Virus record (IMG/VR): IMGVR_UViG_3300024348_000014 | Location: 46,196 to 110,195 of that record | Reading direction: 5' to 3' (one strand) | DNA: 64,000 bases | Source of the DNA: a virus | Shown: piece after piece, positions 5,580 to 61,081 of the stretch | Position numbering within the stretch: position 1 is the first letter of the stretch | Layout of the letters: each line of letters begins with the position of its first letter | Program-made: the position numbers and the translations under genes | Notes under the pieces: model-generated | Seen by the model: only the letters and a program-made list of their open reading frames with translations | Databases searched by the model: none | Told to the model about the DNA's origin: nothing

Positions 5580-5582
5580 ATA
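5576..5582 (+). promoter_or_regulatory. Late promoter motif CTAAATA
   Basis: CTAAATA overlaps the stop codon of the 958-residue protein and lies 20 nt before the next start, which has its own GAGGAAA ribosome-binding site. Confidence 0.45.
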
Positions 5583-5602
5583 TATCGAATTAGAGGAAAA
5601 CT

Positions 5603-8002
5603 ATGTCAACACAAGTACAATTTAGACGAGGTACAACTACACAAAATAATGCGTTCACTGGAGCGCAGGGTGAATTGTCTGTTGACACCGATCTTAAAAC
5701 GATTCGTCTACACGATGGAACTACCGCAGGTGGTGGTTCCACTATGCTTAATAACATCTCTGCACAAACTGCTTTAAATAAAACATTTAGTACTGGTTCT
5801 GTTTGGCAGGGTAATGCTGTTGGTTTAGGTTATGGTGGTACAGGTTCTGCTCTCAGCCCAGCAGCTGGTGCTGTTCTGTATTCTACTGCCAGTGGTCTTG
5901 CTCTTTCTGCAGCTGGTACTTCTGGTCAAATTCTAGTTTCTGGTGGTGCTGGTGCTCCGACATTCGTTGCTGCTTCTTCTATCGCAGCTGGTACTTCTAC
6001 TACAGCTGCTACTGCTACTAACATCGCTGGCGGTTCTGCTGGTCAGTTAGTTATTCAAGCAGATACAAGTTTATCTACATTCATTACTGCTGGTGCATCA
6101 GGTACATTCTTGCGCTCTGCTGGTGCTGGTTATGCACCTACTTGGGCGACTGCAGACGTAACAATTGGTTCTACTGTTATTGCTCTGGGTAGTTCTTCTA
6201 CTAGTTTAGCTGGTATGAATATTATTGCAGCTACTGGTACTAGCCATTGGACACTTCCAGTGGGTACAACTGGTAATCGTCCAGTTTCTCCTGCTGCTGG
6301 TATGGTTCGTTACAACTCTACAATCACTTCGTTCGAGGGTTATTCATCTGGTGCATGGTCTTCTCTTGGTGGTGTATCTTCTGTAGATAAGTTTACATAC
6401 ATTCAAGCAGAAACTTCTGCCAATGCTTCTAATGGTGATCTAGATTTCTTTGCTGAAGATGCAGCTGGCACTGCTGCCACTCAAGTTGGTCAGTGGAATA
6501 GAACTAACCTTAAAGATTATACTGGTACTTTAGTTGGAACACAAACTACTCAGAATGTCTTTAACGCTACTGCAACAACTGTTAATGCTTTTGGCGCAGC
6601 GACTACACTTTCTCTTGGTGCTGCAAGTGGTACAGCGACTGTTAATAACTCAACAGTAACATTAGCCAATGCTACTGCTCTTAACATTAATGGTGCGTCT
6701 CCAGCAATTGCTACAACTAGTACTACTGCTTCCCTATTCAACTCAACAGTTACTACATTAAATATCGGTGGTGCAGCAACTACTATTTCTATAGGTGCTG
6801 CAACTGGCACACTAACAATCAATAATGCAAATACAGTTATTACTGGTAACTTAACTGTAAACGGCACAACTACAACAATTAACTCAACAGTAACTTCTGT
6901 TGATGATATTGAATTTGAATTAGGTTCTGTTGCATCTCCAACTAATGTTACTGCCAATGGCGGTGGTATTCGTCTTAAAGGTACTACCGATAAGACTATT
7001 ACTTGGGATAGCACTAATGCTAACTGGACTTCTAGTGAAAACTGGAATCTTGCTACTGGTAAGACATTTAAGATCAACAACGTATCAGTTCTAACTGCTA
7101 ATGCTGTTCTTAATGATTCTACTCAAACATCTATTACTGTTGGTGGTTCTGCCACTGCGATTACTCTAGGTGCTAATAGTGGAACATTAACTATTGGTAA
7201 CCCAACTGTTGTTGGAACACAAACAACACAAAACTTATTTAATACAGTAGCAACTACTTTAAATATTGGTGGTGCATCGACTGCACTAAACTTAGGTGCA
7301 TCTACAGGTACAGCGACTATCGCTAACCAAACTGTTACATTAAGTAATGCCACTGCATTGAATTTGAATGGCGCTTCTCCTGTAATTGCTACAACTAGTA
7401 CTACTGCTTCAGTTTTTAACTCATCAGTTACTACTCTCCATATTGGTAGTGCAGCAACTACACTAGCGATTGGTAATGCCACTTCTGCTACCTTGACTCT
7501 TCGTCCAGGAACTGTTGTTGGATCTAATACCACTCAGAACTTATATAATACAGTTGCCACTACTTTAAACTTAGGTGGTGCAGCAACTGCACTAAACTTA
7601 GGTGCATCTACTGGTACTACAACAGTTAACAATGATTTAACAGTTGCCTCTGGTAAAAAGATAGTAATGACTAACATCTACGATATCGTAGCATTTAGTG
7701 GTTCAACTTCTGGAACTGGTGCCACAGCAATAACTACTTTATCTTCTTCTGTGTATCGTTCTGGTAAAGTTGTACTGTCAATCACTAATGGTTCTGTTTA
7801 TAGAATTATGGAAATGTTGTTTATGCATGATGGTACTACTGTAACATTTAACGAAAACTACACAGTTGCCAATGAAATGCAAAGTGCAACTACTAATACT
7901 ACATTTAGTGGATCTATCTCTGCTGGAACTTTAACGATCTTTGCTACTTGTTCTTCTGGAACTTCTGCAATAAAAGGTCAAGCAACTTTATTCAAGGTAT
8001 AA
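5603..8002 (+). CDS. Tail fibre protein with Mtd-like N-terminus
   Basis: 799 residues. The first 45 residues (TQVQFRRGTTTQNNAF, then GELSVDTDLKTIRLHDGTTAGG) match the N-terminal module shared by the phage major tropism determinant and many fibre proteins, which usually attaches the fibre to the tail. The rest is repeats of TTLNIGGAATTL(S/N)(I/L)GA.TGT and a NLTVNGTTTTINSTVTSVDD segment that is typical of marine phage fibres. The last 110 residues are non-repetitive and may form the tip. GAGGAAA precedes the start. Probable receptor-binding fibre. Confidence 0.75.
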   Translation: MSTQVQFRRGTTTQNNAFTGAQGELSVDTDLKTIRLHDGTTAGGGSTMLNNISAQTALNKTFSTGSVWQGNAVGLGYGGTGSALSPAAGAVLYSTASGLALSAAGTSGQILVSGGAGAPTFVAASSIAAGTSTTAATATNIAGGSAGQLVIQADTSLSTFITAGASGTFLRSAGAGYAPTWATADVTIGSTVIALGSSSTSLAGMNIIAATGTSHWTLPVGTTGNRPVSPAAGMVRYNSTITSFEGYSSGAWSSLGGVSSVDKFTYIQAETSANASNGDLDFFAEDAAGTAATQVGQWNRTNLKDYTGTLVGTQTTQNVFNATATTVNAFGAATTLSLGAASGTATVNNSTVTLANATALNINGASPAIATTSTTASLFNSTVTTLNIGGAATTISIGAATGTLTINNANTVITGNLTVNGTTTTINSTVTSVDDIEFELGSVASPTNVTANGGGIRLKGTTDKTITWDSTNANWTSSENWNLATGKTFKINNVSVLTANAVLNDSTQTSITVGGSATAITLGANSGTLTIGNPTVVGTQTTQNLFNTVATTLNIGGASTALNLGASTGTATIANQTVTLSNATALNLNGASPVIATTSTTASVFNSSVTTLHIGSAATTLAIGNATSATLTLRPGTVVGSNTTQNLYNTVATTLNLGGAATALNLGASTGTTTVNNDLTVASGKKIVMTNIYDIVAFSGSTSGTGATAITTLSSSVYRSGKVVLSITNGSVYRIMEMLFMHDGTTVTFNENYTVANEMQSATTNTTFSGSISAGTLTIFATCSSGTSAIKGQATLFKV

Positions 8003-35616: not shown

Positions 35617-37092
35617 ATGAAGAAAATAATTGTACTAGGCGCAGGAACAGCAGGGTTAATCACTGCTCTCATTCTTAAATCTACCTTTCCGAAGTATCAA
35701 ATCTCAGTTATTGAGTCTGGTGCGATTGGTATTATTGGAGTTGGTGAAGGTTCAACAGAACACTGGAAGATATTCACTGACTATTGTGGTATCAATACCA
35801 ACAGATTGATTCGAGAGACAGATGGTGCTCTTAAGAAGGGTATCAAATTTGAGAATTGGAATGGTGATGGTGCATCTTATTTTCACTCATTGTCTCCTCC
35901 ATTCTTTGATGAGTTTACAGACAGTGGTCAACGTCTAAATTTTACGAAGTCTATGATCCATAAAGGTATTCCAACTGAAGATATTCTATTGGATACCAAC
36001 TTTGTAACACAACAATCTGGTATTCAAAGCACTAATCAATATCATTTTAACACTATGAAGTTAAATAAATTTCTTCATGATGTGTGTAAAGAAAAGGGTA
36101 TTAATTTCACAGATGCCATTATTGATCAAGTGATGTTCTCAGAAAATGGAGATGTTGCTAAGTTAATAGACAATGCTGGTATTGAATATGTTGCAGATAT
36201 CTTCATTGATAGTTCTGGATTCAAGAGAGTGATTTCTTCTAAGCAGGGTGCTAAGTGGATCTCATATAAAAAATATCTGCCAATGAATCATGCATTAGCA
36301 TTTCCAACAAATGATATTTCTGATCTAAAACCCTATACACTTTCACGTGCTCTTGGCTCTGGTTGGAACTGGAGAATTTCTACTCAAGGAAGGTATGGTA
36401 ATGGTTATGTATTTTGTGATGAGTTCATTGATGCAACTAAAGCCCATGAAGAAATACAATCATTCTATACTGAAGAAGTAAAGGTAGCGAAGGATATTAA
36501 ATTTGATGCTGGTCGTGTAGACAAATATTGGATTGACAACTGTATCTCTGTTGGTCTTTCTGCATCATTTGTAGAACCACTTGAAGCATCTAGTATTGGT
36601 AACTCAATCCTACAGGCTTTTGGCATTGCAAAGTTGCTACCTCTTTGGGAACTTGACCGAAAGTACGCAGAGAAGTATAATAAAGACTTCACTAGGTGCT
36701 TTGACAATATTGTTGACTTTGTTCAGTTACATTACATGACCAAAAGAAATGATACTTTGTTCTGGAGAACTTTACCTGAGATGATGACTAAGACAGATTT
36801 TATCAAGGAACATTTAGAGATCTTTAAAAAGACAATACCGAATCAATCTCTTTTTATGGGCGAGTATCATATGTTCCAATCTCCAAATTGGGCTCAAGTA
36901 ATGAATGGTCTTGGTTTATTGGATAGAGAATACATTAGCAATAAGTTACAAGAAGTTAGTGGAGAAGGTGCTATTAAAGATTCATACGGAAGGTATGATG
37001 CATATCTAAATGATACAGAAAGGGGTTCTTACATCGAACACAAGACACTATTAGAACAGAATAGGATTGTTGTTAAACTTGACAGACGTTAA
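35617..37092 (+). CDS. Flavin-dependent tryptophan halogenase-like protein
   Basis: 491 residues, in the usual 490-540 range. FAD-binding GAGTAG (8-13), GVGEGST (41-47), the lysine in ALKKGIKF (Lys73 by alignment to the catalytic Lys of PrnA/RebH), the WNWRI block (250-254) that halogenases use to exclude monooxygenase activity, and FVEPLE with Glu323. It would use FADH2, chloride or bromide and oxygen. Substrate cannot be predicted, and free tryptophan is not assured. It splits the clamp from the clamp loader genes; no clear ribosome-binding site. Confidence 0.82.
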   Translation: MKKIIVLGAGTAGLITALILKSTFPKYQISVIESGAIGIIGVGEGSTEHWKIFTDYCGINTNRLIRETDGALKKGIKFENWNGDGASYFHSLSPPFFDEFTDSGQRLNFTKSMIHKGIPTEDILLDTNFVTQQSGIQSTNQYHFNTMKLNKFLHDVCKEKGINFTDAIIDQVMFSENGDVAKLIDNAGIEYVADIFIDSSGFKRVISSKQGAKWISYKKYLPMNHALAFPTNDISDLKPYTLSRALGSGWNWRISTQGRYGNGYVFCDEFIDATKAHEEIQSFYTEEVKVAKDIKFDAGRVDKYWIDNCISVGLSASFVEPLEASSIGNSILQAFGIAKLLPLWELDRKYAEKYNKDFTRCFDNIVDFVQLHYMTKRNDTLFWRTLPEMMTKTDFIKEHLEIFKKTIPNQSLFMGEYHMFQSPNWAQVMNGLGLLDREYISNKLQEVSGEGAIKDSYGRYDAYLNDTERGSYIEHKTLLEQNRIVVKLDRR

Positions 37093-46064: not shown

Positions 46065-48547
46065 TGGAATTTTATACATCGGTTCATCCGATTGGAGACA
46101 AGATCTATATTCGAGGTTATGAAAAGGGGAAACCTTACAAACGTAAACTAGATTTCCAACCAACATTTTATGTAACATCAAACAAACCCTCCAAGTGGAA
46201 AACACTGGAGGGAATTTTCGTTGATGAAATTAAACCTGGATCCATTCGAGATGCTCGAGACTTCGTCAAACGATATGATGAGGTAGAAGGCTTTGCTGTT
46301 TATGGTAATACCAACTATGCATATCAGTATATCAGTGACAACTATGACACTGTTAACTGGGACATGGAACAGATCAAAGTATTTACAATTGACATTGAAA
46401 CTTCTACAGAGAATGGTTTCCCAGATGTTCGTCTTGCCAATGAAGAAGTTCTTCTAATCACCATCAAAGATCTACAGTCAAAGCGCATTATCACTTTTGG
46501 TTCTAAACCATTCGTGCATAATCGTGACGATGTAGTCTATATCACTTGTCGTGATGAACAACATTTGCTAAAAGAGTTTATGCTTTTCTGGCAAGACAAT
46601 TATCCAGATGTTGTCACTGGTTGGAATACCGACTTCTTCGATATGCCATATCTTATTCGTAGGATTGATCGTGAACTTGGTGCAGATGTTTCTAAGAAAA
46701 TTTCTCCATGGGGCATGATCAATGAGAGAAAGACATTCATTAAAGGTAATGAAGAACTTCATTACGATATCATTGGCATCTCTCAGCTAGATTATCTTGA
46801 ACTCTACAAGAAGTATACCTATTCAAAACAGGAATCATATCGCCTCGACTATATCGCTGAGCAAGAACTTGCTGACAAAAAGAAACCGAATCCTGGAGTT
46901 GACTTCAAAGATTTCTATACTAACTATTGGCAAGCATTTGTTGAGTATAACATCCATGACGTAGAGTTGGTTGACAAACTCGAAGACAAGATGCGACTTT
47001 TAGAGTTGCACCTGACCATGGCGTATGCTGCAAAGATTAATCCAGAAGATGTTTACTCACAGGTTCGTATGTGGGATACTATCATCTATAATCATTTACG
47101 TGCTCGTCATATTGTCATTCCTGCTAAAACACACTCTGGTAAAGATGCACAATTTGAAGGTGCGTATGTTAAAGATCCACTTGTTGGTATGCATAAGTGG
47201 GTGGCTTCCTTTGACTTGAACTCATTGTACCCGCATTTGATCATGCAATACAACATCAGCCCAGAGACTTTAACGTCTGAGAAGATGCCAGTCAATGTAG
47301 AGAAGTTGCTTAACAAAGAGATTGATCTTTCGTATGCAAAGCAACGAGATCTTTGTGTCACTGCGAATGGATGGACTTACACTAAAGAAGTCAAAGGGTT
47401 CATGCCTGAGTTGATGGAGAAGATGTATACTGACCGAAGCAAGTTTAAGAAACAGATGCTAAAGGTTCAACAGGAATACGAGAAAGACAAAACAAAGAAA
47501 CATTTGTTGAAGGATATCTCTCGCTTAAACAATCTGCAGATGGCGATGAAGATTGCATTGAACTCTGCTTATGGTGCCATGGGTAATCAGTACTTCCGCT
47601 ATTTCGATATTCGTATGGCTGAAGGAATTACTACTTCTGGTCAGTTGTCTATTCGTTGGATGGCTAATAAGTTGAATGCATTCCTTAACAAGACTTTAAA
47701 GACCGAAGGTAAAGATTTTGTTATTGCGATTGACACTGACTCGATCTATCTAACTCTTGAAGAACTTGTTGAACGAACCTGTGAAGGTAAGACAACAGAA
47801 CAAAAGATCAAGTTTATGGATAAGATCTGCGAAGATGTTTTCCAACCATTCATTGATTCAGGTTACCAAGAGTTGGCTGATTATATGAATGCATATAGTC
47901 AAAAGATGCAGATGAAGCGAGAGGTTCTTGCTGACAAGGCAATCTGGACTGCCAAGAAACGCTATGTTATTAATGTTCATAATTCAGAAGGTGTACAGTA
48001 TGAGAAGCCTAAGATCAAAGTTATGGGTTTGGAAATGGTCAAGTCGAGTACACCTGCTGTTATTCGTGACAAACTCAAAGATTCGTTACAAGTTATTCTC
48101 TCGGGAGATGAAAAGAAACTACACACGTATGTCACAGAGTTTAAAAAAGAGTTTGTCAAATTACCGATCGAAGACATAGCATTCCCACGTGGTGTTAATG
48201 GTATGAAGCAGTATGCAGGTTCTCCGATTTATACAAAGGGAACTCCAATCCATGTTCGTGGTTCTTTGTTGTATAATCACTATACTAAAAAGATGGGACT
48301 AGATAAAAAGTACCAAGCGATTCGAGATGGTGATAAGATCAAGTTTGTTTATGTTCAAAAACCAAATCCATTACAAGAAGATATCATTGCATTCCCGCAA
48401 CAACTTCCAAAGGAACTTGGATTGGAATCATACATAGATTATGACAAACAGTTCGAGAAAGTATTCTTGGACGCACTTCAAATTGTAATCGAACCATTGG
48501 GTTGGAAGACTCAAGAACAAAGTTCATTGGAGAACTTTTTTGGCTGA
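46064..48547 (+). CDS. gp43: DNA polymerase gp43 (family B)
   Basis: 827 residues against 898 in T4. Proofreading motifs: Exo I FTIDIETS (Asp110, Glu112), Exo II VTGWNTDFFD, Exo III YNIHDVELV. Polymerase motifs: A DLNSLYPHLI, B KIALNSAYGAMGN, C IDTDS (Asp557, Asp559), and KKRY. The C-terminal LENFFG is the clamp-interacting tail. No intron or intein interrupts it. Confidence 0.97.
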   Translation: MEFYTSVHPIGDKIYIRGYEKGKPYKRKLDFQPTFYVTSNKPSKWKTLEGIFVDEIKPGSIRDARDFVKRYDEVEGFAVYGNTNYAYQYISDNYDTVNWDMEQIKVFTIDIETSTENGFPDVRLANEEVLLITIKDLQSKRIITFGSKPFVHNRDDVVYITCRDEQHLLKEFMLFWQDNYPDVVTGWNTDFFDMPYLIRRIDRELGADVSKKISPWGMINERKTFIKGNEELHYDIIGISQLDYLELYKKYTYSKQESYRLDYIAEQELADKKKPNPGVDFKDFYTNYWQAFVEYNIHDVELVDKLEDKMRLLELHLTMAYAAKINPEDVYSQVRMWDTIIYNHLRARHIVIPAKTHSGKDAQFEGAYVKDPLVGMHKWVASFDLNSLYPHLIMQYNISPETLTSEKMPVNVEKLLNKEIDLSYAKQRDLCVTANGWTYTKEVKGFMPELMEKMYTDRSKFKKQMLKVQQEYEKDKTKKHLLKDISRLNNLQMAMKIALNSAYGAMGNQYFRYFDIRMAEGITTSGQLSIRWMANKLNAFLNKTLKTEGKDFVIAIDTDSIYLTLEELVERTCEGKTTEQKIKFMDKICEDVFQPFIDSGYQELADYMNAYSQKMQMKREVLADKAIWTAKKRYVINVHNSEGVQYEKPKIKVMGLEMVKSSTPAVIRDKLKDSLQVILSGDEKKLHTYVTEFKKEFVKLPIEDIAFPRGVNGMKQYAGSPIYTKGTPIHVRGSLLYNHYTKKMGLDKKYQAIRDGDKIKFVYVQKPNPLQEDIIAFPQQLPKELGLESYIDYDKQFEKVFLDALQIVIEPLGWKTQEQSSLENFFG

Positions 48548-49160
48548 ACATTCATACTACCCACTAGTAAACATACAAGACAGACGTGTAGTTCTTTCTG
48601 TTGATGACTTCTTTGATTTAAAGGAACTTGATTATATTAGAAGTTGCTTAAACACAGAGAAGCCAACTGCTGCTATTGTTGGATATACTGATCCAAAGAA
48701 TGTAGAAGACTACGAAAAGATGGTCAAGAAAGCACACGAACGTAGAAAGTCTAATGTATGTTTCTTGGACTTCTTTGAATATGAGTTTTTCTATAAAAAG
48801 TTATGTACAGCAATTCACCATGTAAACCTTACTAATTTTAACAAAGTTTTATATGGTATAGAAGCATTACAGTTTGCAGAGTATGATTCTTTGTATGAAG
48901 GATTTTATGGAGTCCATCCAGATGCTGTAAATACAGATAATGCATTAACAAGATCGTTATCATTTTCTATGCAGATGTCTAAACCAGAAGAGTATGAAGG
49001 TGGTGAAGTTCTAGTCTATGATGGTAATACTACATATACAGCAAACAAGAAATATGGATCAATTACATTCTTTGATTCTAGAATGTTACACGAAGTCACT
49101 CCTGTCACCAGTGGCTTTAGAAGAAGTATAGTTGGATGGATTCTTGGACCAAGAGTATGA
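48540..49160 (+). CDS. 2OG-Fe(II) oxygenase, prolyl-hydroxylase/PiuC type
   Basis: 206 residues from TTG 48540, which has GGAG 6 nt upstream; no ATG occurs in frame until codon 61. GVHPD (His126-Asp128), EEYEGGEVLVYDG, MLHEVTPV (His184) and SGFRRSIVGW (Arg194/195) give the iron- and 2-oxoglutarate-binding residues. This type is very common in cyanophage and SAR11 phage genomes. Substrate unknown. Confidence 0.8.
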   Translation: MAEHSYYPLVNIQDRRVVLSVDDFFDLKELDYIRSCLNTEKPTAAIVGYTDPKNVEDYEKMVKKAHERRKSNVCFLDFFEYEFFYKKLCTAIHHVNLTNFNKVLYGIEALQFAEYDSLYEGFYGVHPDAVNTDNALTRSLSFSMQMSKPEEYEGGEVLVYDGNTTYTANKKYGSITFFDSRMLHEVTPVTSGFRRSIVGWILGPRV

Positions 49161-49705
49161 GCAACATTAGAATAATTAAAACTGGAATCAATGTTTCAAA
49201 GATATTGAAGCAACTTCAACAACATCCAACTGACTGGGATCATCAAAAACGAATTGAGGATATCGGTGACTCAACTCAATCTGGATGGAAATTTGCGCCA
49301 GTTGGTACACTGCAATTAGTCATGGGAGGTGTTACAAACAAAGACGAATTTGTTGGTAACACTGAGATATGTATATCAACCAGAGCGATTGCTAATCATA
49401 CAGAAGTTGTAGGATTCATGAGAAGAAATTTTAAGAAATTTAGTCGTTGTGGATTCCTAGCATTGCCAGTTGGTGAACGTGTAGAAAAACATATTGATCA
49501 TGGGACTTATTATCTTACAAGAGATCGATACCATCTATCAATCCAAGGTACGTATAGATACTTTTGCGGTGATGAATATGTAGATGTTGAACCTGGAACT
49601 TTGCTCTGGTTCAATAATAAACTTATGCATGGAACTGAAAACACAGGTGACTGTACACGAATTACATTTGTGTTCGATGTACCACACTCTAAGTCTAATC
49701 CATAG
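49157..49705 (+). CDS. Aspartyl/asparaginyl beta-hydroxylase-like 2OG oxygenase
   Basis: 182 residues from ATG 49157, overlapping the previous stop (ATGA). HIDHG (His112, Asp114), RYHLSIQG (Arg124), GTLLWFNNKLMHG (His158) and CTRITFVFDV (Arg168) follow the Asp_Arg_Hydrox cupin pattern. Two unrelated-looking oxygenases in tandem suggest a joint task, but the substrate is unknown. Confidence 0.78.
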   Translation: MSNIRIIKTGINVSKILKQLQQHPTDWDHQKRIEDIGDSTQSGWKFAPVGTLQLVMGGVTNKDEFVGNTEICISTRAIANHTEVVGFMRRNFKKFSRCGFLALPVGERVEKHIDHGTYYLTRDRYHLSIQGTYRYFCGDEYVDVEPGTLLWFNNKLMHGTENTGDCTRITFVFDVPHSKSNP

Positions 49706-51346: not shown

Positions 51347-51674
51347 ACATCTTGCAGAACCGCCAGTTACAGTAGTCGAGAATAGGAAGACTGGTCTCGA
51401 CGCATTACGTTTGACTGATGGACCATACAAAGGTATAATCTATACCTATGGAAAAGTTTCTTTTGATGAAGAAGGAACCGAGAAGGTTCATATGAAATTT
51501 GAATATGACATCCTAGAAGATTCAGGTGTTAGTTATGATGACGATGAATTTGAAATATACATTGGTCACATTCTCCAACACTTGATCACTAAGCAACTCC
51601 AAGAAAATAGCATTACATACACTGGTGGAATTGATGAGAATAGAACAGAAGATCCTGAGCAGTCTGATACATGA
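51339..51674 (+). CDS. Conserved unknown protein between uvsX and gene 41
   Basis: 111 residues: RLTDGPYKGIIYTYGKVSFD and MKFEYDILEDSG (in parts) followed by an acidic segment. Such a gene is regularly seen in this place in cyanophage-type genomes. Overlaps uvsX by 8 nt and gene 41 by 41 nt. Confidence 0.65.
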   Translation: MNKHLAEPPVTVVENRKTGLDALRLTDGPYKGIIYTYGKVSFDEEGTEKVHMKFEYDILEDSGVSYDDDEFEIYIGHILQHLITKQLQENSITYTGGIDENRTEDPEQSDT

Positions 51675-53028
51675 TGAAAAGTATTGTCGTAAAGTTATCC
51701 CATTTATTAAAAAAGATTATTTCTCTGAACGAAACGAAGCTGTCCTTGCAACTGAAGTAATTAAATTCTTCACAACATATAACAAGCCAGCAACTAAAGA
51801 GATTTTATCAATTGAAGTAGGTAACAGGAAAGACTTAAACGATAAAGAACTGTCAGACATTAATGAATACATAAAAAACATCAGCAATGAACCAGTCAAT
51901 GAAGACTGGTTGATGGAAAACACCGAGAAATTTTGTAAAGACAGGGCTGTATATAATGCAATTCTTAAATCAATCCAAATTATTGATGGTCGGGATAAAA
52001 CCCATACAAGTGATGCTCTTCCCTCTATTCTTAGTGATGCTCTTGCTGTGTCTTTCGATAACCATGTTGGTCATGATTACATCGATGACCATACAAGTCG
52101 TTATGAATTCTATCACAGGGTTGAAGAAAAAGTTCCTTTCGATTTGGATATTTTTAACAAAATCACCAAAGGTGGATTGAGTAAGAAAACTTTAAACATT
52201 GTATTGGCTGGTACTGGTGTTGGTAAGTCTCTGTTCATGTGTCACATGGCTGCAGGAGTATTGACTCAGGGTAGGAATGTTCTTTACATTACTATGGAGA
52301 TGGCTGAAGAAAGAATCGCAGAACGTATCGATGCAAACTTACTGAACCTTACTATGGATGAGTTGAAAGTTATCGATAAAGATATTTACGAGAATCGTAT
52401 TGATAAGATTGCTAAAAAGACTAAAGGTAAGTTGATCATTAAAGAATATCCAACTGCTGGCGCACACTCTGGTCACTTCAGAGCATTGTTGGAAGAATTA
52501 AAGTTGAAGAGAGAATATGCGCCAGACATCATATTCATTGACTATTTGAACATTTGTGCGTCTCAACGCATGAAGCAAGGTGGAAGTGTTAACTCTTATA
52601 CATATATTAAGAGTATTGCAGAAGAGTTAAGGGGTCTTGCAGTTGAGTATAATGTTCCGATTGTATCGGCTACACAAACTACTCGATCTGGATTCACAAA
52701 CTCTGATCCAGGACTCGAAGATACTTCAGAGTCATTCGGCTTACCAGCAACTGCTGACTTTATGGTTGCATTGATTAGCAATGAAGAATTAGAACAGTTG
52801 AATCAAATAATTGTCAAGCAATTAAAAAACAGGTATAATGATCCTAGTTACTTTAAAAGATTCGTAGTTGGGATTGATAGATCTAAAATGAGGTTGTATG
52901 ATGTCGAAGCCTCTGCACAAATTGGATTGTCTGACTCTGGTCAAGAAGATGATGGTCCAGTTTTTGACAAAGGTACATTTGGTAAGAGAATGAATACTGA
53001 AGAAAAATTTAGCGGATTTAAGTTTTAG
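51634..53028 (+). CDS. gp41: Replicative DNA helicase gp41 (DnaB family)
   Basis: 464 residues from ATG 51634 (475 in T4). N-terminal helical domain, then Walker A AGTGVGKS with Lys198, YITMEMAEERIAERID, Walker B IIFIDYLNIC and an ATQTTRSG sensor block. It unwinds the fork 5' to 3' with the primase, which is not in this window. A GTG three codons upstream is an alternative start. Confidence 0.94.
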   Translation: MRIEQKILSSLIHDEKYCRKVIPFIKKDYFSERNEAVLATEVIKFFTTYNKPATKEILSIEVGNRKDLNDKELSDINEYIKNISNEPVNEDWLMENTEKFCKDRAVYNAILKSIQIIDGRDKTHTSDALPSILSDALAVSFDNHVGHDYIDDHTSRYEFYHRVEEKVPFDLDIFNKITKGGLSKKTLNIVLAGTGVGKSLFMCHMAAGVLTQGRNVLYITMEMAEERIAERIDANLLNLTMDELKVIDKDIYENRIDKIAKKTKGKLIIKEYPTAGAHSGHFRALLEELKLKREYAPDIIFIDYLNICASQRMKQGGSVNSYTYIKSIAEELRGLAVEYNVPIVSATQTTRSGFTNSDPGLEDTSESFGLPATADFMVALISNEELEQLNQIIVKQLKNRYNDPSYFKRFVVGIDRSKMRLYDVEASAQIGLSDSGQEDDGPVFDKGTFGKRMNTEEKFSGFKF

Positions 53029-53036
53029 GAGAGAAT

Positions 53037-54338
53037 ATGGTAAAAGTTATCGTAGCAAAAGAAAAGTTTGATTGTTCAAAGTTAGAAGGAACATTCGTAG
53101 ACGAATCTCATTATGATCATCTCATCGAAGAAGATACTGATGTTTACATGCCATCATCAATTGATGGTGGAGATCCTTACAGTGAGAAGCGTATTGTTCT
53201 AAAGTTTCGTAAGAACTACTTCACACAAGAGCAACAAGATCAAGCATATCTTGGTCTGAAAGATGCAGCAACTGAAACTCAGAACAGAGGTAAAGCAGCT
53301 GGACCACGTGGCGACAAATTGGGTAATCGTGAGTGGGTTACTGAGTATGAATATGCCATCTTAGAATACTTTGAAGAAGCAAAGGCTATGCTTGGTGAAG
53401 ATCCAGTTGAACAGATTCGTCAGAAATATAAAAACGCTGTTCAGAAACCATCCACACGAAATAATGTTTGGGGTATCCAAGCAGTTAAGAAAGATGGTTT
53501 TGATTTCGAGAAGTGGGTTGAAGCGACAAGCAAACTATCAGATACAGAACAACATTACGAATCCCTGCGCATTCAAAAGAAATATGTTTGTCCAACAACT
53601 TATGCTAATGGAGTTCTTTCTGGCATTGCTGGTTGGTTCGATCGTTACCCACGTATCCCTTATGGTCGTGCTACTTCTTATACTGCAAATAACTTTGAAA
53701 AGTTTAAGATGTCATATCCATTCCTTCAGCAACTATCTAAAGGATTTAAGGAATATCTTCCAGAGCGTTTTGCAGCGCAGATGTCTGCAGCAAACAAACT
53801 TGATTCAGCATTCTTAGTTCCTGAAACTCCATTCACAACTATCACTGTTAACAATACATTTAGAACTGCTGCTCACTACGATGCAGGTGACTTGAATGAA
53901 GGTTTGTCGAATCTATTGACATTGTCTAATGATGGTAAGTATACTGGTGGATATCTGATTGCTCCTGAGTATCGTGTTGCAGTTAATCCACGTCCAGGTG
54001 ATTTGCTTCTTATCAACAATCACGAAGTTATGCATGGTAATACTCCGATTGTTTGTCCAGAAGGTTCAGAGCGTATTAGTCTTGTTGTTTACTTCAGAGA
54101 AAAGATGCTCGAGTTGGGTAGCAAAGCATATGAAGATGCACGCTATGAATATGTAGAGGGACGCAGGTTAAATAAAGAACACCCAGAACATAAAGATCGC
54201 CATCTTTGGAATGGTGTTACTGCAGGTATGTGGGATGAGAAAGAGTGGTATGACTTCTTGAGTGCTAAACAGGGTGGTGAAGATATGCTTGCTAAATATC
54301 ATCCTACAACCAAAGGTGCTCTTGAGGAGTTTTTCTAA
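53037..54338 (+). CDS. TET/JBP-like 2OG-Fe(II) DNA base dioxygenase
   Basis: 433 residues, AGGAGA ribosome-binding site. The C-terminal half has FRTAAHYDAGDLNEGLSNL (His280, Asp282; in parts), YTGGYLIAPEYRVAVNPRPGDLLL and NNHEVMHGN with His329/His333, then GSERISLVVYF with the 2OG-binding Arg. The H-x-D-x-G-D, EGLS and PGDLLL order is that of the TET/JBP family rather than of prolyl hydroxylases. Such phage enzymes oxidise the methyl group of thymine or 5-methylcytosine in DNA. Because no C5-methyltransferase is seen in the window, thymine to 5-hydroxymethyluracil is the simpler inference. First gene of the 53037-57725 cluster. Confidence 0.72.
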   Translation: MVKVIVAKEKFDCSKLEGTFVDESHYDHLIEEDTDVYMPSSIDGGDPYSEKRIVLKFRKNYFTQEQQDQAYLGLKDAATETQNRGKAAGPRGDKLGNREWVTEYEYAILEYFEEAKAMLGEDPVEQIRQKYKNAVQKPSTRNNVWGIQAVKKDGFDFEKWVEATSKLSDTEQHYESLRIQKKYVCPTTYANGVLSGIAGWFDRYPRIPYGRATSYTANNFEKFKMSYPFLQQLSKGFKEYLPERFAAQMSAANKLDSAFLVPETPFTTITVNNTFRTAAHYDAGDLNEGLSNLLTLSNDGKYTGGYLIAPEYRVAVNPRPGDLLLINNHEVMHGNTPIVCPEGSERISLVVYFREKMLELGSKAYEDARYEYVEGRRLNKEHPEHKDRHLWNGVTAGMWDEKEWYDFLSAKQGGEDMLAKYHPTTKGALEEFF

Positions 54339-54340
54339 TA

Positions 54341-55036
54341 ATGTGTTCCATAATTGGTGCTGTGTTAAAGAATCCTCGTCATGAGGATTTTGAAATGATT
54401 CGTAGAGTATTCCTTGAGTCTAAGATTCGAGGAATGCATGCGACAGGTATATCTTTTTTACCGCATTGGAGTAAGTCAGTTGTAACTATCAAAGAAGCAA
54501 TGCCATCTGATAGATTTATTGATACTCATATGCATATTGATAATATGAAGGAGATGGTTAATGACGATGGTACTCTTTACCTTATTGGTCACTGTAGATA
54601 TAGCACTAGCGATTTATCTTATAATCAACCGCTAGCAAATGAATTGAAGTCCATTGTTCATAATGGAGTTATTACACAAGAACTTCCTGAGAACTGGGGT
54701 AACATTTATCCTTACACATTTGAAACTAAGAATGACTCTGAGTTAGTATTACATTCAGATGACCCACTCAGAGAGTTCCCAGATGCATCTATGGCAGTGT
54801 GTGAACTTTATGTAGATCGTAAGTTGCGATTCTATCGTAATGGTAAACGTCCATTATACTTGACAAGTATTGAATGTGGGAGTATAATTACCTCTACGGC
54901 AGATGTTCCAAAACGTGCTGAGGTTGCAGGGTTTCCAGTTAATGTTCTTATGAATCATTACAATACATTTGATGGTGACCTTGCATTGACGATTGAGCGA
55001 GTTGATATTAAAGATGCATTAGATTACCAAAAATGA
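54341..55036 (+). CDS. Free-standing class II glutamine amidotransferase
   Basis: 231 residues. Met1-Cys2 gives the N-terminal nucleophile after Met removal. IRGMHATGIS, LIGHCRYSTS, VHNGVITQ and TKNDSELVL are the usual Ntn glutaminase motifs. It hydrolyses glutamine and would hand ammonia to a partner, but no synthetase or transferase domain is fused. Strong GAGGAG ribosome-binding site; overlaps the next gene by 4 nt, pointing to a common complex or pathway with the neighbours. Confidence 0.85.
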   Translation: MCSIIGAVLKNPRHEDFEMIRRVFLESKIRGMHATGISFLPHWSKSVVTIKEAMPSDRFIDTHMHIDNMKEMVNDDGTLYLIGHCRYSTSDLSYNQPLANELKSIVHNGVITQELPENWGNIYPYTFETKNDSELVLHSDDPLREFPDASMAVCELYVDRKLRFYRNGKRPLYLTSIECGSIITSTADVPKRAEVAGFPVNVLMNHYNTFDGDLALTIERVDIKDALDYQK

Positions 55037-55671
55037 TATTAGTTGATTTAGCAAAAGTAGAAAACATTATTTCAAATAGTCCAGCTGGTAAGAATACAAA
55101 ATTCTTATCGGCTGCACATTCATTATGGTATCGGTTTCACAATTATGACAAAGCATTACCAATGGCTTATGAAGTTAATGGTGATGTTGTTTGTTTAATC
55201 TTTGCTACATTCAATCGTGATGGTTATGCCAACCTGTATGAGATCGTAACACTCGAAGGAAAAGAAGGAAATGGATACGCATCAAAGTGTTGGGACGCAT
55301 GGATTAAATACGCAGTCGAAGAACGAAAGTCTAAACGACTTAAAATCTCTTGCACACCTTCTTCAGTCACATGGCATTATCGCAATGGACTCATCTTCTG
55401 GGCAGTTGACCCGACTGGCTCGTTACGTTCTGACCAACCATTATTCTCAACTAGGCAAGAGCAAATTAGCTACAGAAATAATGCTATTATCAATCCATCC
55501 TCTGCTCTGCCACCAAGCAAAGCACAAGATCAGTTTAGGTTAGAAGGATTAGAATTATATAAATGGGGTGACAAGAAGAAAGAAAAAACTCAAACAGCAA
55601 TTGATGCAGTTGGTACAGCATGGCTACGAGATGCTCTTATGAATCAACCAACACTACAAGAATTTTTATAA
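55033..55671 (+). CDS. GNAT-like acyltransferase
   Basis: 212 residues. The central part NLYEIVTLEGKEGNGYASKCWDAWIKYAVEE (in parts) reads as GNAT strand 4 and the acyl-CoA pyrophosphate loop (EGKEGNGYA), followed by KRLKISCTPSSVTWHYRNGL. Mom-like and other DNA-modifying GNAT proteins are known from phages. Here it could acylate a modified base, which is inferred from the neighbours. Overlaps both neighbours. Confidence 0.62.
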   Translation: MILVDLAKVENIISNSPAGKNTKFLSAAHSLWYRFHNYDKALPMAYEVNGDVVCLIFATFNRDGYANLYEIVTLEGKEGNGYASKCWDAWIKYAVEERKSKRLKISCTPSSVTWHYRNGLIFWAVDPTGSLRSDQPLFSTRQEQISYRNNAIINPSSALPPSKAQDQFRLEGLELYKWGDKKKEKTQTAIDAVGTAWLRDALMNQPTLQEFL

Positions 55672-56687
55672 TGGATTATCGTTTACAAGAAAATCGTAAA
55701 GAAGCATTCATACGCTGGTACGCATGGTCATTGAAGTATGATGATTGTGATCCAGCAGTATGGGCAACGAACTATCTTAATAAAAGATATGAACACAATG
55801 ATGAACAGCGTCTTTGGTTTGCATGGCTTTATGGTAATACATACCAGTTGCAAACTGCATGGGTACTAATGAATGAGTTTCCTGATTATGAATTAGCAAC
55901 AGTTGATAGAATCACTCAATGGAATACAGCTAACTATAAGAGACTACGATATCAAACTGATACAAAGTGGAACAAAGGACATCTTCCTGCCATGTTCGAG
56001 TCTTACCAAAAATTTATAGGAAGTGGAACACAACGTGATAGGATGGAAAGTTTTTATGCATCATCAGAGGAAGACACTTTTGATAGACTGTGGGATGGGG
56101 TTAAGTCGAGCCTGCATAAATTTGGTCGTTATTCCACTTGGTTTTACTTACAGCATCTTAAACATACTGCTGGCATCTCTGTTAATCCTACTTCTCTCAT
56201 GCTGGACGATTATGATGGTTCCCGTAGTCATCGTAATGGACTTCTGTATGCCCTTGGACAAGAATCCGATTGTGATCGAAGACTCAGTAATATGGAGTAT
56301 TCAAACCTCGAAGTACATGCAAAAGAAATTCTGGAAGAAAGTAAAAGACGATTCCCTGACTTAGCAGGACAGATTGATTTCTTTACCATGGAAACCTGCT
56401 TGTGTTCTTTTAAGAAACTATTCAGAGAACACCATGGACGTTACCTTGGTTACTATCTAGATCGTCAGGCTGAAGAGATTGTTAAAGCAGAGAATGATAG
56501 TTGGTATGGTATTGATTGGGATGTTCTTTGGCAAGCACGTGAAGAAACAATTGATTTTAGATTAGACCATAAACGTGGTATCGATAAAGAAAGGTTTTCT
56601 TCTTTCCTGAATTCAGGTAAATTAGAAAATTTAGAATGGATGTTTAATGATGAAGAATCTATACTAATTGGATTGGAGAATTTTTAA
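55671..56687 (+). CDS. Putative amino acid:DNA transferase-like hypermodification protein
   Basis: 338 residues from ATG 55671 (TAATG overlap); an ATG at 55620 lies in the previous gene. All-helical and rich in Trp/Tyr: LWFAWLYGNTYQLQTAWVLMNEFPD, WNTANYKRLRYQTDTKWNKGHLP, FGRYSTWFYLQHL and SHRNGLLYALGQ (in parts). This resembles, from memory, the AADT/alpha-glutamyl-putrescinyl-thymine group of helical proteins predicted in phage DNA hypermodification operons. The family call needs a profile search; the operon context supports it. It overlaps the next start by one base. Confidence 0.55.
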   Translation: MDYRLQENRKEAFIRWYAWSLKYDDCDPAVWATNYLNKRYEHNDEQRLWFAWLYGNTYQLQTAWVLMNEFPDYELATVDRITQWNTANYKRLRYQTDTKWNKGHLPAMFESYQKFIGSGTQRDRMESFYASSEEDTFDRLWDGVKSSLHKFGRYSTWFYLQHLKHTAGISVNPTSLMLDDYDGSRSHRNGLLYALGQESDCDRRLSNMEYSNLEVHAKEILEESKRRFPDLAGQIDFFTMETCLCSFKKLFREHHGRYLGYYLDRQAEEIVKAENDSWYGIDWDVLWQAREETIDFRLDHKRGIDKERFSSFLNSGKLENLEWMFNDEESILIGLENF

Positions 56688-57130
56688 TGGCTATTAATAA
56701 ACCACAGCCCAACTGGGGTGATAATATGATTGTGACTGGTACAGGTTTACAACCATTTTCAAATGGTGGGACTCTCAGTATCAATACTGCAATGAATACA
56801 GGCACTGTTGCAGCAAGTGGATCTTATACTACAAATACCATAAGTGTACAAAAACCTGTAGATGAAGTTTTAGATCAATTTGATATGAATGAAGTTGTCG
56901 TTGAACATAAAGTTACAACATTTGAACTTGCCAAATTGAAAGAAACTGTAGACTACCACGACATCATTAAACAAAATTTGTCTAAGAAGATTTCTGAAAG
57001 TATAATTAACAAAGCAAGATTCACGAAGAAGCAAGATCTTGACTCAGATACTATATCTTTTCGTGGAAGAGTATGGGTATTTAATAAAGAAGAATTGATG
57101 GATTTAATAAAGGAAGTCAGAAATGTTTGA
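56687..57130 (+). CDS. Unknown protein in the hypermodification cluster
   Basis: 147 residues. The first 55 residues are a Gly/Thr/Asn-rich, fibre-like stretch (SNGGTLSINTAMNTGTVAAS); the rest is charged and helical with KKISESIINKARFTKK then SFRGRVWVFNKEELMDLIKE. The two halves differ clearly in composition. It sits between the transferase-like and the kinase gene with overlaps on both sides. No function recognised. Confidence 0.55.
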   Translation: MAINKPQPNWGDNMIVTGTGLQPFSNGGTLSINTAMNTGTVAASGSYTTNTISVQKPVDEVLDQFDMNEVVVEHKVTTFELAKLKETVDYHDIIKQNLSKKISESIINKARFTKKQDLDSDTISFRGRVWVFNKEELMDLIKEVRNV

Positions 57131-57725
57131 TAAATTTGGAGTAGTTGACGAGATTAGTGTTCAGTTGATTAGAAACCCCACTAAGACTAGAAAGATTATC
57201 GCAGTTGGTGGGCAACCTGGAACTGGTAAGACTACACTGTTTCGTAAATTTATGGAAAATAAACAGTGGATTGTAGGTGAACCAGCCAAGTTGGTATCAG
57301 CATCCTATAATACCGAACGAGATCTATACATCCTTGGTAAATATGATGAGGGTGAAACCTTTGCTGGAACAGATCGGCTTTCGATGGCAGTCCAACCAAA
57401 CCTCCAAGAGTGGGTTAAGTCTAATAACTGCAATATCCTTTTCGAGGGAGATCGAGTCTTCAACCAGTCATTCCTAGAGTTTTGTATGGAGTTACCTAAT
57501 ACCGAATTGCAAGTGGTCTATTTGGCAGTCCCGAAACCTATGTTAGAACAGAGATACAAAAATAGGGGTTCTGACCAGTCTGAAACTTTCCTAAAGGGTC
57601 GGGAGACTAAATATAGTAATCTATTGTCAAACTTTGACTTGATGCCTTATATTACTGAGTTTGTAAACACTAACTTAGAGGAGCAGGGGAAAGTACTTGC
57701 GCACTTGGAGAAACAGTTTAGTTAA
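57123..57725 (+). CDS. P-loop kinase, probable 5-hydroxymethyl-base DNA kinase
   Basis: 200 residues. Walker A GQPGTGKT (30-37), GKYDEGETFAGTDRLSMAVQPN in the middle (in parts), Walker B-like ILFEGDRVFN and an Arg-rich lid region RYKNRGSDQ. The GTDRLSM and FEGDR blocks recall the P-loop kinases that phosphorylate 5-hydroxymethyluracil in DNA in hypermodifying phages (5-HMUDK). In this pathway the phosphate would activate the hydroxymethyl group for substitution. A nucleotide kinase is the alternative. Confidence 0.68.
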   Translation: MFDKFGVVDEISVQLIRNPTKTRKIIAVGGQPGTGKTTLFRKFMENKQWIVGEPAKLVSASYNTERDLYILGKYDEGETFAGTDRLSMAVQPNLQEWVKSNNCNILFEGDRVFNQSFLEFCMELPNTELQVVYLAVPKPMLEQRYKNRGSDQSETFLKGRETKYSNLLSNFDLMPYITEFVNTNLEEQGKVLAHLEKQFS

Positions 57726-57745: not shown

Positions 57746-58441
57746 ATGAACTTCCTAGAAAAAGCCAATTACGACTGGATGGAACTGCTCAACTTTTATG
57801 AGCGTCCATTCAGAGCTAAACTCACACCCTCAAAAGTCTGGATTGATCTAGATCGTTATAAGAACGATTCTGTCGGTCTTGCCAACTATGCTAAGAAGTG
57901 GCGCACCAAAGTCGAATGGCGTAAGGAAAAGTCTAAAGCAAAGTGGACTGAAACCTATGTAGGAATTGGTGGTGAATATGCTCCAGATGAGAGACAGATA
58001 ACCATACAAATCTATACTGATAGGTTCAATTCATTCTCCTTTACAAATAAGTCTTGGACAGCATTTAAGATGAGATTTATTCAAACTCTCATGCACGAAT
58101 TGATACACTTCATGCAGTACGAGAGAAGAGATGACTCATGGAGTAACTACGTTGTACCATATAAAAAGGTGGGTATAGCAAAGAAGGATGAACAGAGAGC
58201 ATACCTCTCTGAGTTTGATGAGATACAAGCATATGCGCATTGTGTGTATCTAGATTTTAAGATGCGTAGACCCAGAGTAGAAATCAACATCCTGTTGAAT
58301 CGTTATAAAAAGAAACGAGATTCGTCTACTCTTCACTTCTTCTTAAAGACGTTTGATTACGATTTAAGAAACAACATGGCCACTCGAAAGATCATAGATC
58401 AAATCGGTAAATGGGATCGTAAATACAACCGAATGACTTGA
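57746..58441 (+). CDS. HExxH metalloprotein, SprT-like
   Basis: 231 residues. FIQTLMHELIHFMQYE has the zincin motif HELIH (117-121), and SEFDEIQAYAHCVYLD further on may supply the third ligand. N-terminal part has YGGIGG-like VGIGGEYAPDERQITIQIY. Basic C-terminus. Might cleave a host or virion protein; target unknown. Not obviously part of the base modification route despite the 20-nt distance. Confidence 0.75.
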   Translation: MNFLEKANYDWMELLNFYERPFRAKLTPSKVWIDLDRYKNDSVGLANYAKKWRTKVEWRKEKSKAKWTETYVGIGGEYAPDERQITIQIYTDRFNSFSFTNKSWTAFKMRFIQTLMHELIHFMQYERRDDSWSNYVVPYKKVGIAKKDEQRAYLSEFDEIQAYAHCVYLDFKMRRPRVEINILLNRYKKKRDSSTLHFFLKTFDYDLRNNMATRKIIDQIGKWDRKYNRMT

Positions 58442-59892: not shown

Positions 59893-60642
59893 ATGAAAGA
59901 TTACAAACAATTATTAAAAGAACTCCCATCTAAAACGGTAGTTCTAGCCTGTGGTAAGTTTAACCCTCCAAACGTGGGTCATGAACTTATTGTAAAGGCT
60001 GTCAAAGCACTGGCTGAGCAACGTAGCGCAGACCACGTAATCTATGCATCCACTGTTAGCGATGCGAAAAAGAATCCACTATTAGTAGAAAAGAAACTTC
60101 AGTATTTGAATCTGATTTTTCCTAAGACCAACTTTGTCGAATCTGAAAAGAATTTGGTAGATATCGTTAAGAGTCTAAAAGAAAACTATTCAAATATTAT
60201 TTTAGTGACTGGCGCAGAAGTTCCACGAGCACTAAAGAAGTATAATGTTACTGTTATCAATACTGGAGAAAGCGATCCAGACGAATCTGAAACTATTCGT
60301 TCATTCGCTTCCAAGGGATTGTATGAACAGTTTAAGAAAGCACTACCATCATCTATTAGAGATCTTGATAGTCGTAGATTAATGAATGACATAAGAACTG
60401 GTCTTGGTTTAGATATAATCAAAGAGCAGATCAATCTAGTTAAAGACGATATTCGTGAGATGTATCACTCAGGTGAAATCTTTAATGTCGGAGAAGTTGT
60501 TGAGTCTAATGGTAAGAAGTATGAGATTGTTAAGCGTGGTTCAAACCATCTACTATTAAAAGAAGACTCTGGTAAATTAGTATCTAAATGGATACAAGAT
60601 GTTAAAATAATTACATTTAAAGAACATATAAAAAATGGATGA
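59893..60642 (+). CDS. HxGH nucleotidyltransferase (NMNAT/cytidylyltransferase-like)
   Basis: 249 residues. GKFNPPNVGHE (21-31) is the (T/H)xGH variant of the nucleotide-binding motif, and SETIRSFASKG stands for the ISSTxxR motif. A C-terminal part from about 185 with EIFNVGEVVESNGKKYEIVKRG is a separate beta-rich module. These enzymes transfer AMP or CMP to a phosphorylated substrate such as NMN. Frequent in marine T4-like phages; substrate unknown. Overlaps the Dps gene by 8 nt. Confidence 0.78.
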   Translation: MKDYKQLLKELPSKTVVLACGKFNPPNVGHELIVKAVKALAEQRSADHVIYASTVSDAKKNPLLVEKKLQYLNLIFPKTNFVESEKNLVDIVKSLKENYSNIILVTGAEVPRALKKYNVTVINTGESDPDESETIRSFASKGLYEQFKKALPSSIRDLDSRRLMNDIRTGLGLDIIKEQINLVKDDIREMYHSGEIFNVGEVVESNGKKYEIVKRGSNHLLLKEDSGKLVSKWIQDVKIITFKEHIKNG

Positions 60643-61081
60643 ACTAAAAACAGCAATCAAAGTCCTGTTGGCAAATACAACAGTGATGTACTATAAGGCT
60701 CATCAATTTCATTGGAACATTGAGGGCATAGAGTTCACTCAATTCCACGAATTCTTTGGAGATCTGTATACTGATGTTTATAACTCAGTAGATCCAATTG
60801 GTGAACTGCTACGTAAGTTAGATGATTATGCTCCAGTCAGTTTAGATGACCTGTTTAAGTATAAAACATTACAGGAAGAGACTACCAGAGTAGAACTTCT
60901 TTCTGATATTCTGGCTAGTCTTATTAAAGCAAATGAGGAAGTCTTGGCTAGCCTAAATAAAGTGTTCACTATTGCAAATGCAGACAAACAACAAGGTATT
61001 TGTAATTTTATTGCGGATAGAATAGATACACACCAGAAGCATGCATGGTTCTTACGTGCTTCTGCTAAGAAAATAGGATAA
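60635..61081 (+). CDS. Dps/ferritin-like protein
   Basis: 148 residues. KAHQFHWNIEGIEFTQFHEFFGDLYTDVYNSVDPIGE (in parts) contains the His and Asp/Glu residues of the inter-subunit ferroxidase centre of Dps. Dps proteins bind iron, detoxify peroxide and may coat DNA. Their presence in a phage may protect DNA during infection or be packaged. Late motif upstream of its operon. Confidence 0.88.
   Translation: MDELKTAIKVLLANTTVMYYKAHQFHWNIEGIEFTQFHEFFGDLYTDVYNSVDPIGELLRKLDDYAPVSLDDLFKYKTLQEETTRVELLSDILASLIKANEEVLASLNKVFTIANADKQQGICNFIADRIDTHQKHAWFLRASAKKIG

Follow-up and report, generated by a model that had tools for sequence, protein, structure and literature searches.

A probable post-replicative thymine-hypermodification operon with an exchangeable enzyme cassette in a T4-like phage

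The thymidine hypermodification pathways of phages M6 and ViI run through 5-hydroxymethyldeoxyuridine (5hmdU), a DNA kinase and a transferase of the ADDT (amino acid:DNA transferase) family. Here we describe a six-gene operon in the window, a 64,000-nucleotide stretch forming the right-hand part (positions 46,196 to 110,195) of the 110,195-base virus record IMGVR_UViG_3300024348_000014, itself a fragment that ends about 6 kb past the last gene of the operon. Judging by the families it encodes, this operon probably hypermodifies thymine after replication, giving a bulky nitrogen-bearing base whose final structure we leave unnamed. It would share the 5hmdU intermediate, the DNA kinase and the ADDT-family transferase with M6 and ViI (PMC6449724), whose 5-hydroxymethyldeoxyuridine monophosphate is made at the nucleotide level by an enzyme of the thymidylate synthase (TS) family, whereas the oxygenase of the window is predicted to oxidise thymine already in DNA. 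The operon is thus a variant, and not a plain member, of the M6/ViI type: the IMG/VR records searched have no TS-family deoxyuridine monophosphate (dUMP) hydroxymethylase, for which a TET enzyme is the predicted substitute. A five-gene system of TET, ADDT/aGPT-type enzyme and kinase, likewise with no dUMP hydroxymethylase, has been described in the Rhodococcus phage Tonitrus (PMC11955845).

The first gene encodes the oxygenase. Its product matches the Tet_JBP domain PF12851 (E = 3.2e-23, 82.2 bits against a cut-off of 34.9, profile positions 30-164 of 164) and, over its full length, phrog_24024 (9e-155), a family of unknown function. A sequence-only reading of this DNA had proposed a TET/JBP-like enzyme, and its motifs are where they were expected, with H280-x-D282, EGLS at 288, PGDLLL at 320 and the distal H333, followed by R346. 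The pattern FRTA.H.DaGD / RPGD / HGNT / R.S.V is kept across 61 distinct relatives. Domain, HxD...H iron ligands and 2-oxoglutarate (2OG)-binding arginine all point to the Tet_JBP family and not to the protein hydroxylases, the TauD match staying below its cut-off (2e-4). The enzyme is predicted to oxidise the 5-methyl group of thymine in DNA to 5-hydroxymethyluracil (5hmU).

The last gene encodes a P-loop kinase with the GTDRLSM and FEGDR blocks noticed in that reading. It matches Ploopntkinase3 PF18751 (2.4e-9) and phrog_800 (1.1e-13), and its dNK match is below the cut-off (8.5e-6), a placement outside the free-nucleotide kinases. GxPGxGKT, GTD, EG.R, R144 and R148 are kept as far as the phages Cr30, Melnitz and Terij. 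Since phrog_800 also finds the kinase open reading frames (ORFs) of M6, Hydro, Cr30, Melnitz and Terij, its name, 'terminase small subunit', is likely a mislabel. Similar labels, also likely wrong, occur in GenBank KF301602, KU682439 and MG450654, where TET appears as 'SNF2 DNA repair protein', DNA kinases as 'terminase small subunit' and the Terij kinase as a 'HicA-like' toxin. BLASTP of the window kinase against the M6 ORF alone is weak (0.004), and profile comparison was used instead: it gives an hhalign probability of 95% over 126 columns for M6 and of 98.9% for the kinase of mycobacteriophage Hydro, and pairs the window blocks GKYDEGETFAGTDRLSM and LFEGDR with GDYTPAAAGATTAGLDRIK and LFEGVVV of M6. 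The M6 record is unannotated; read by eye, its kinase ORF stands in a row with radical-SAM-like and TS-like ORFs. M6 is reported to have a 5hmdU DNA kinase, and its DNA contains 5-(2-aminoethyl)dU (PMC6449724). From this report and the cluster neighbours, we presume that the ORF is that kinase. The window kinase is akin in sequence to this M6-type 5hmdU DNA kinase (HMUDK), and is predicted to phosphorylate 5hmU in DNA.

Between the two lie four further genes. The helical protein that had been likened to AADT-type transferases is an ADDT, a solid profile assignment (PF18724, 3.9e-21, 76.3 bits against a cut-off of 26.2; phrog_3271, 5.6e-54); its relatives occur in 376 phage records, Salmonella kutterviruses among them, and in none of 14 control cellular genomes. 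The free amidotransferase proposed earlier matches GATase_6 PF13522 (5e-7; a distant member reaches 6.7e-12 and also matches GATase_7), and its profile matches amidophosphoribosyltransferases in the PDB. Cys2, R30-G31, GHxRYST, NQP, HNG and ND.E do not vary among 17 diverse members, the most distant of them at 41% identity. With an N-terminal catalytic cysteine and glutamine-binding motifs, it reads as a class II glutaminase and a predicted ammonia donor. The GNAT-like protein, highly conserved among relatives, falls just under the cut-off for Acetyltransf_1 (0.0019) and has no match in a PDB sequence search; its AlphaFold model (pLDDT 56, core about 70-79) finds GNAT acetyltransferases as best PDB matches, at probability 1.00. 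The orphan, represented by 48 distinct members, combines a variable N-terminus with a conserved C-terminal half of about 80 residues (HKV..EL..LK ... FTKK ... GRVWVF..EEL). It has no convincing Pfam or PHROG match, no match in phage records, no paralogue in the loci searched and no kin outside the cassette. Profile searches thus assign four of the six proteins, place the GNAT just below cut-off and leave the orphan without a family, in line with the sequence-only reading.

All six genes lie on the plus strand (53037-57725), as that reading had it, with junctions of +2 to -8 bases. One correction concerns the ADDT gene, which opens at 55620 in the ORF list; the conserved ATG is at 55671, in a TAATG overlap with the GNAT stop codon. 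Their touching or overlapping reading frames, and a G+C content equal to that of the window (37.8%), give the appearance of a settled operon with coupled translation, downstream of the helicase gene. In IMG/VR, 353 stretches are related to the TET gene, and the order helicase, TET, glutaminase, GNAT, ADDT, orphan, kinase, SprT-like recurs in dozens of diverged contigs with about 70-100% TET identity. The operon is therefore real, far beyond chance.

A further clue to its function comes from exchange among relatives. We mapped the genes of 182 TET-bearing loci (73 TET clusters); loci were fetched partly via the cassette markers, so that the proportions are no census, and this way of fetching does not force the markers to exclude one another. 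TET is fixed, usually with a helicase gene in front (directly 5′ in 59 of the 73 clusters) and often a SprT-like gene behind, and the space beyond it holds one of three mutually exclusive fillings. Cassette A, the type of the window, consists of glutaminase, GNAT, ADDT, orphan and kinase; some loci add a second 2OG oxygenase (PF13759) or one or two genes for B12/radical-SAM proteins. Such B12-binding radical-SAM genes, one or two per locus, are inserted near the orphan in L049, L062, L064, L218 and L220, recalling the radical-SAM-like ORF that, with a TS-like ORF, flanks the kinase in M6. Cassette B contains glutaminase, amidoligase (PF12224, 1e-4), low-molecular-weight phosphatase (PF01451, 4e-17), ADDT and kinase, and nearly all of its loci lack the orphan; some carry a TET-associated glycosyltransferase (TAGT, 6e-8) or a GT1 glycosyltransferase (1e-5, sub-threshold). 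Cassette C consists of a 335-residue and a 151-residue protein, with no kinase, ADDT or glutaminase. Across the 73 clusters, GNAT occurs in 38, amidoligase in 14 and the 335-residue protein in 15, and no cluster has two of these together. GNAT and amidoligase alternate at one site. On the TET tree, where long branches, L123 above all, leave some placements unsure, the three cassette labels need at least 10 changes and the cassette C label alone 6; nested cases stand on well-supported forks, with L140 within A, L126 beside A and L127 beside B.

Two loci show the amidoligase family in other company. In L156, a TAGT (5214-6002, 6e-8) lies inside the same cassette as amidoligase, ADDT and kinase, a setting in which sugar and amino-acid chemistry may work together. 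In L234 (Vibrio phage 2.275.O, 7890-12150), 7-deazaguanine (queuosine-type) genes and an Ntn-type aminohydrolase adjoin a relative of the cassette B amidoligase, which may serve another DNA base there.

The 335-residue protein of cassette C has no kin in the PDB or in phage records by sequence; direct PDB sequence searches with this protein, TET, ADDT, kinase and GNAT gave marginal matches or none. Its model is good (pLDDT 82), and its leading PDB matches are GT-B glycosyltransferases, among which the highest TM-score listed belongs to T4 beta-glucosyltransferase (0.67/0.68, root-mean-square deviation 4.4). That enzyme glucosylates 5-hydroxymethylcytosine (5hmC) in DNA and, in vitro and weakly, converts 5hmU to base J, a base that was stated in 2014 not to occur in prokaryotes or viruses (PMC4111573). 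That a predicted GT-B enzyme replaces kinase and ADDT behind the same TET is the best independent argument we have for TET making a hydroxymethyl base in DNA, the intermediate that the cassettes would have in common. We tentatively extend this to the whole series, a scheme to which we give somewhat less than even chances, in which one fixed TET would make 5hmU in replicated DNA and swappable cassettes would write glutamine-derived amide or acyl amino-acid adducts or, in sister phages, glycosylated 5hmU, either base J itself or something very like it. Should the cassette C enzyme indeed use 5hmU, phages too would have base J. Two T4-like phages, L074 (4567-5679) and L107 (6519-7634), carry within the glycosyltransferase cassette a gene for a membrane protein of the sulfate permease family (PF00916, 7e-49).

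For the window, we propose the following sequence of events. The phage would replicate with ordinary dTTP, after which TET would hydroxylate the 5-methyl group of selected thymines in DNA to 5hmU, and the P-loop kinase would phosphorylate the new hydroxyl. ADDT would swap the phosphate for an amino acid, as in M6 and ViI (PMC6449724). The glutaminase would supply ammonia, most likely for conversion of the adduct carboxylate to an amide, or else for amination of the activated base, and GNAT would acylate the nitrogen or otherwise form an amide on it. The resulting bulky base would shield phage DNA from host nucleases. By analogy, the role that we think likeliest for the glutaminase and its GNAT or amidoligase partner is to amidate or acylate the amino-acid adduct, with nitrogen from glutamine, since the glutaminase stays constant while its neighbour alternates between two amide-forming families. 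The nitrogen-substituted, possibly acylated base of the sequence-only reading stands as an overall interpretation; its acylation stays conjectural.

Several points weigh against this scheme. The sequences show which genes are present, their families and catalytic motifs, their conserved order, the exchange of cassettes, and that the records searched lack cytosine routes and nucleotide-level routes; the reactions themselves, the base acted on, which of the last two steps comes first, the structure of the product and its protective role are all inferred from these. The sequence of the third protein supports GNAT membership weakly, and the model suggesting it is of modest confidence; action of glutaminase and GNAT on the base is assumed, and both could act elsewhere. 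As the record of the window is a 110-kb fragment, its missing genes are judged from relatives. Finally, in Melnitz a kinase of this family stands next to TET and a C5-methyltransferase, so that the family may also serve 5hmC.

We hold unlikely but worth weighing an alternative in which TET, kinase and ADDT modify thymine, and glutaminase with GNAT or amidoligase forms a separate pathway, for example for a surface group or metabolite, within the same operon; it is compatible with the core of our explanation. Glutaminase and amidoligase occur together in other phage groups, LUZ24-like (PMC3890496) and OM43 phages (PMC10580990), the latter paper citing a suggested role in cell-wall modification, and the role of GNAT is drawn from its fold only. 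Yet the glutaminase accompanies ADDT and kinase in both cassettes A and B, it lies between TET and ADDT among overlapping genes, every cassette C locus lacks it together with ADDT and kinase, and GNAT and amidoligase replace each other at one site.

Phage TETs occur in thymine-type as well as 5mC-type (5-methylcytosine) settings. A somewhat less probable alternative concerns the base, with TET oxidising 5mC, whether host-made or the product of a phage enzyme that PF00145 does not cover, to 5hmC that is then phosphorylated and decorated. The C5-methyltransferase family PF00145 was found in none of 25 IMG/VR records, namely that of the window and 24 relatives (of 161.7, 163.6, 166.5 and 159.7 kb among others), nor in Cr30 or DLP6, whereas the positive control Melnitz, with a C5-methyltransferase adjoining TET, gave 2e-56. 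PF00303, the family of dUMP and dCMP hydroxymethylases, was absent from every IMG/VR record searched, Cr30 being the exception with such an enzyme. ThyX is present in seven of nine IMG/VR records tested, which implies that these phages make ordinary dTMP; the fragmentary record of the window lacks it. Together, these results point to ordinary thymine in DNA as the substrate of TET, and agree with a post-replicative oxidation in place of a dUMP hydroxymethylase. Characterised relatives of ADDT are said, in 2018 work by Lee and colleagues, to act on thymine derivatives, and sparse host 5mC would protect little. Three points speak for cytosine: in the Melnitz phages, an HhaI-like C5-methyltransferase adjoins TET and a kinase related to that of the window; the enzyme nearest in fold to the cassette C protein, T4 beta-glucosyltransferase, naturally acts on 5hmC (PMC4111573); and phage TETs in cytosine hypermodification are established, as PMC10273834 states with reference to Burke et al. 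2021. A 5mC oxidase was considered as an identity for TET, and dropped after a C5-methyltransferase had been sought twice and none found in these IMG/VR records.

That the operon modifies no DNA at all, the oxygenase hydroxylating a protein or metabolite and the other genes building a small molecule or surface group, is very improbable: although many 2OG oxygenases, GNATs, amidoligases and P-loop kinases do work unrelated to DNA and two other 2OG oxygenases occur in the window, three independent DNA-modification families (Tet_JBP, ADDT, Ploopntkinase3) share one operon behind a replicative helicase, and replacement cassettes carry a T4 beta-glucosyltransferase-like enzyme or, in some cases, TAGT.

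Table 1. Genes of the operon and its two neighbours in the window.
Feature	Coordinates	Strand	Length	Basis
TET/JBP-family 2OG-Fe(II) dioxygenase	53037..54338	+	433 aa	PF12851, phrog_24024
Stand-alone class II (N-terminal Cys) glutaminase domain	54341..55036	+	231 aa	PF13522, motifs
GNAT-fold acyltransferase-like protein	55033..55671	+	212 aa	sub-cut-off Pfam, fold
ADDT, amino acid:DNA transferase	55671..56687	+	338 aa	PF18724, phrog_3271
Orphan protein	56687..57130	+	147 aa	no convincing Pfam or PHROG match
P-loop kinase, predicted 5hmU DNA kinase	57123..57725	+	200 aa	PF18751, phrog_800
gp41-type DnaB replicative helicase, fixed left neighbour (context)	51625..53028	+		PF03796
SprT-like (MHELIHFMQ) protein, usual right neighbour in all three cassette types (context)	57746..58441	+		PF10263 0.16 only

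The window comes from a T4-like phage, with UvsX, a gp41-type DnaB helicase, gp45 clamp, gp44 loader, RegA and a family B polymerase. A DNA-level search against phage records gave no match, and a scan of bacterial genomes for TET gave none either, and hence no clue to the host. The two other 2OG-Fe(II) oxygenase-type genes overlap each other upstream of the operon (48540-49160, PF13640, 8.6e-14; 49136-49705, Asp_Arg_Hydrox, 2e-7) and may be linked to it or unrelated. A homologue of flavin-dependent tryptophan halogenases (35617-37092, PF04820, 1e-96) lies between the clamp and loader genes, and a Ferritin/Dps-like protein (60635-61081), which reads as Dps, is the only PF00210 match among these genes. 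A dATP/dGTP diphosphohydrolase (PF18909, 2.7e-34), found within 33260-63150, raised the idea of a Z-genome, which was rejected as this and related records have no PurZ-like PF00709.

The sequence-only reading overstated the novelty of combining TET, ADDT/aGPT and kinase without a dUMP hydroxymethylase, a combination described in Tonitrus (PMC11955845) and visible in Hydro and Cr30. New here are the glutaminase with GNAT, its alternative of glutaminase with amidoligase, and the substitution of a GT-B glycosyltransferase for the entire set; the literature searched, from which the core papers were absent so that novelty is not proved, describes neither pair behind a TET nor the cassette swap. A survey of jumbo phages found no TET/JBP enzymes (PMC7824862). 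If our explanation is true, the known phage DNA bases would gain thymines that bear an amide or acyl group and arise after replication, and new enzymes for writing on thymine in DNA would become available. It would also provide a natural series, with one scaffold and differing last enzymes, in which the benefit of each decoration against host restriction becomes testable.

To our knowledge, neither M6 nor ViI uses a glutaminase with a GNAT. Tonitrus and Hydro resemble the window in having TET, an ADDT/aGPT-type enzyme and kinase in one row, but a ParB-like gene stands in front, the row lacks glutaminase and GNAT, and their TET and ADDT are only remotely similar to those of the window. The Caulobacter phage Cr30 is closer in TET (46% identity), ADDT (1.3e-52) and kinase (38%); unlike the window, it has a TAGT-like protein (weak, 8.5e-4), inositol-1-phosphate synthase and the PF00303 enzyme, and the glutaminase/GNAT cassette was not detected in it. 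With the 5mC-TET phages (the Burke et al. 2021 type and Melnitz), the window shares TET and, in Melnitz, a related kinase, whereas the C5-methyltransferase is theirs only. In Methylophilales phage Melnitz-3 (L089, 4010-8090), an HhaI-like C5-methyltransferase, TET, a 427-aa protein of unknown function and a kinase of the window's family stand in a row, which suggests a phosphorylated 5hmC pathway. Precedents for the two remaining enzymes are Mom of phage Mu and Gat-QueC, in which a GNAT fold and a glutaminase domain, respectively, build DNA bases as proposed here (PMC7824862, PMC6884629); Mom modifies adenine, its shared GNAT superfamily being only suggested, and Gat-QueC acts on 7-deazaguanine to make dG+. 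With the kinetoplastid base J pathway (JBP and glucosyltransferase), finally, the window shares the predicted TET/JBP oxidation of thymine in DNA; its cassette C relatives add a glycosyltransferase with a T4 beta-glucosyltransferase-like fold, whereas the window has kinase and ADDT instead.

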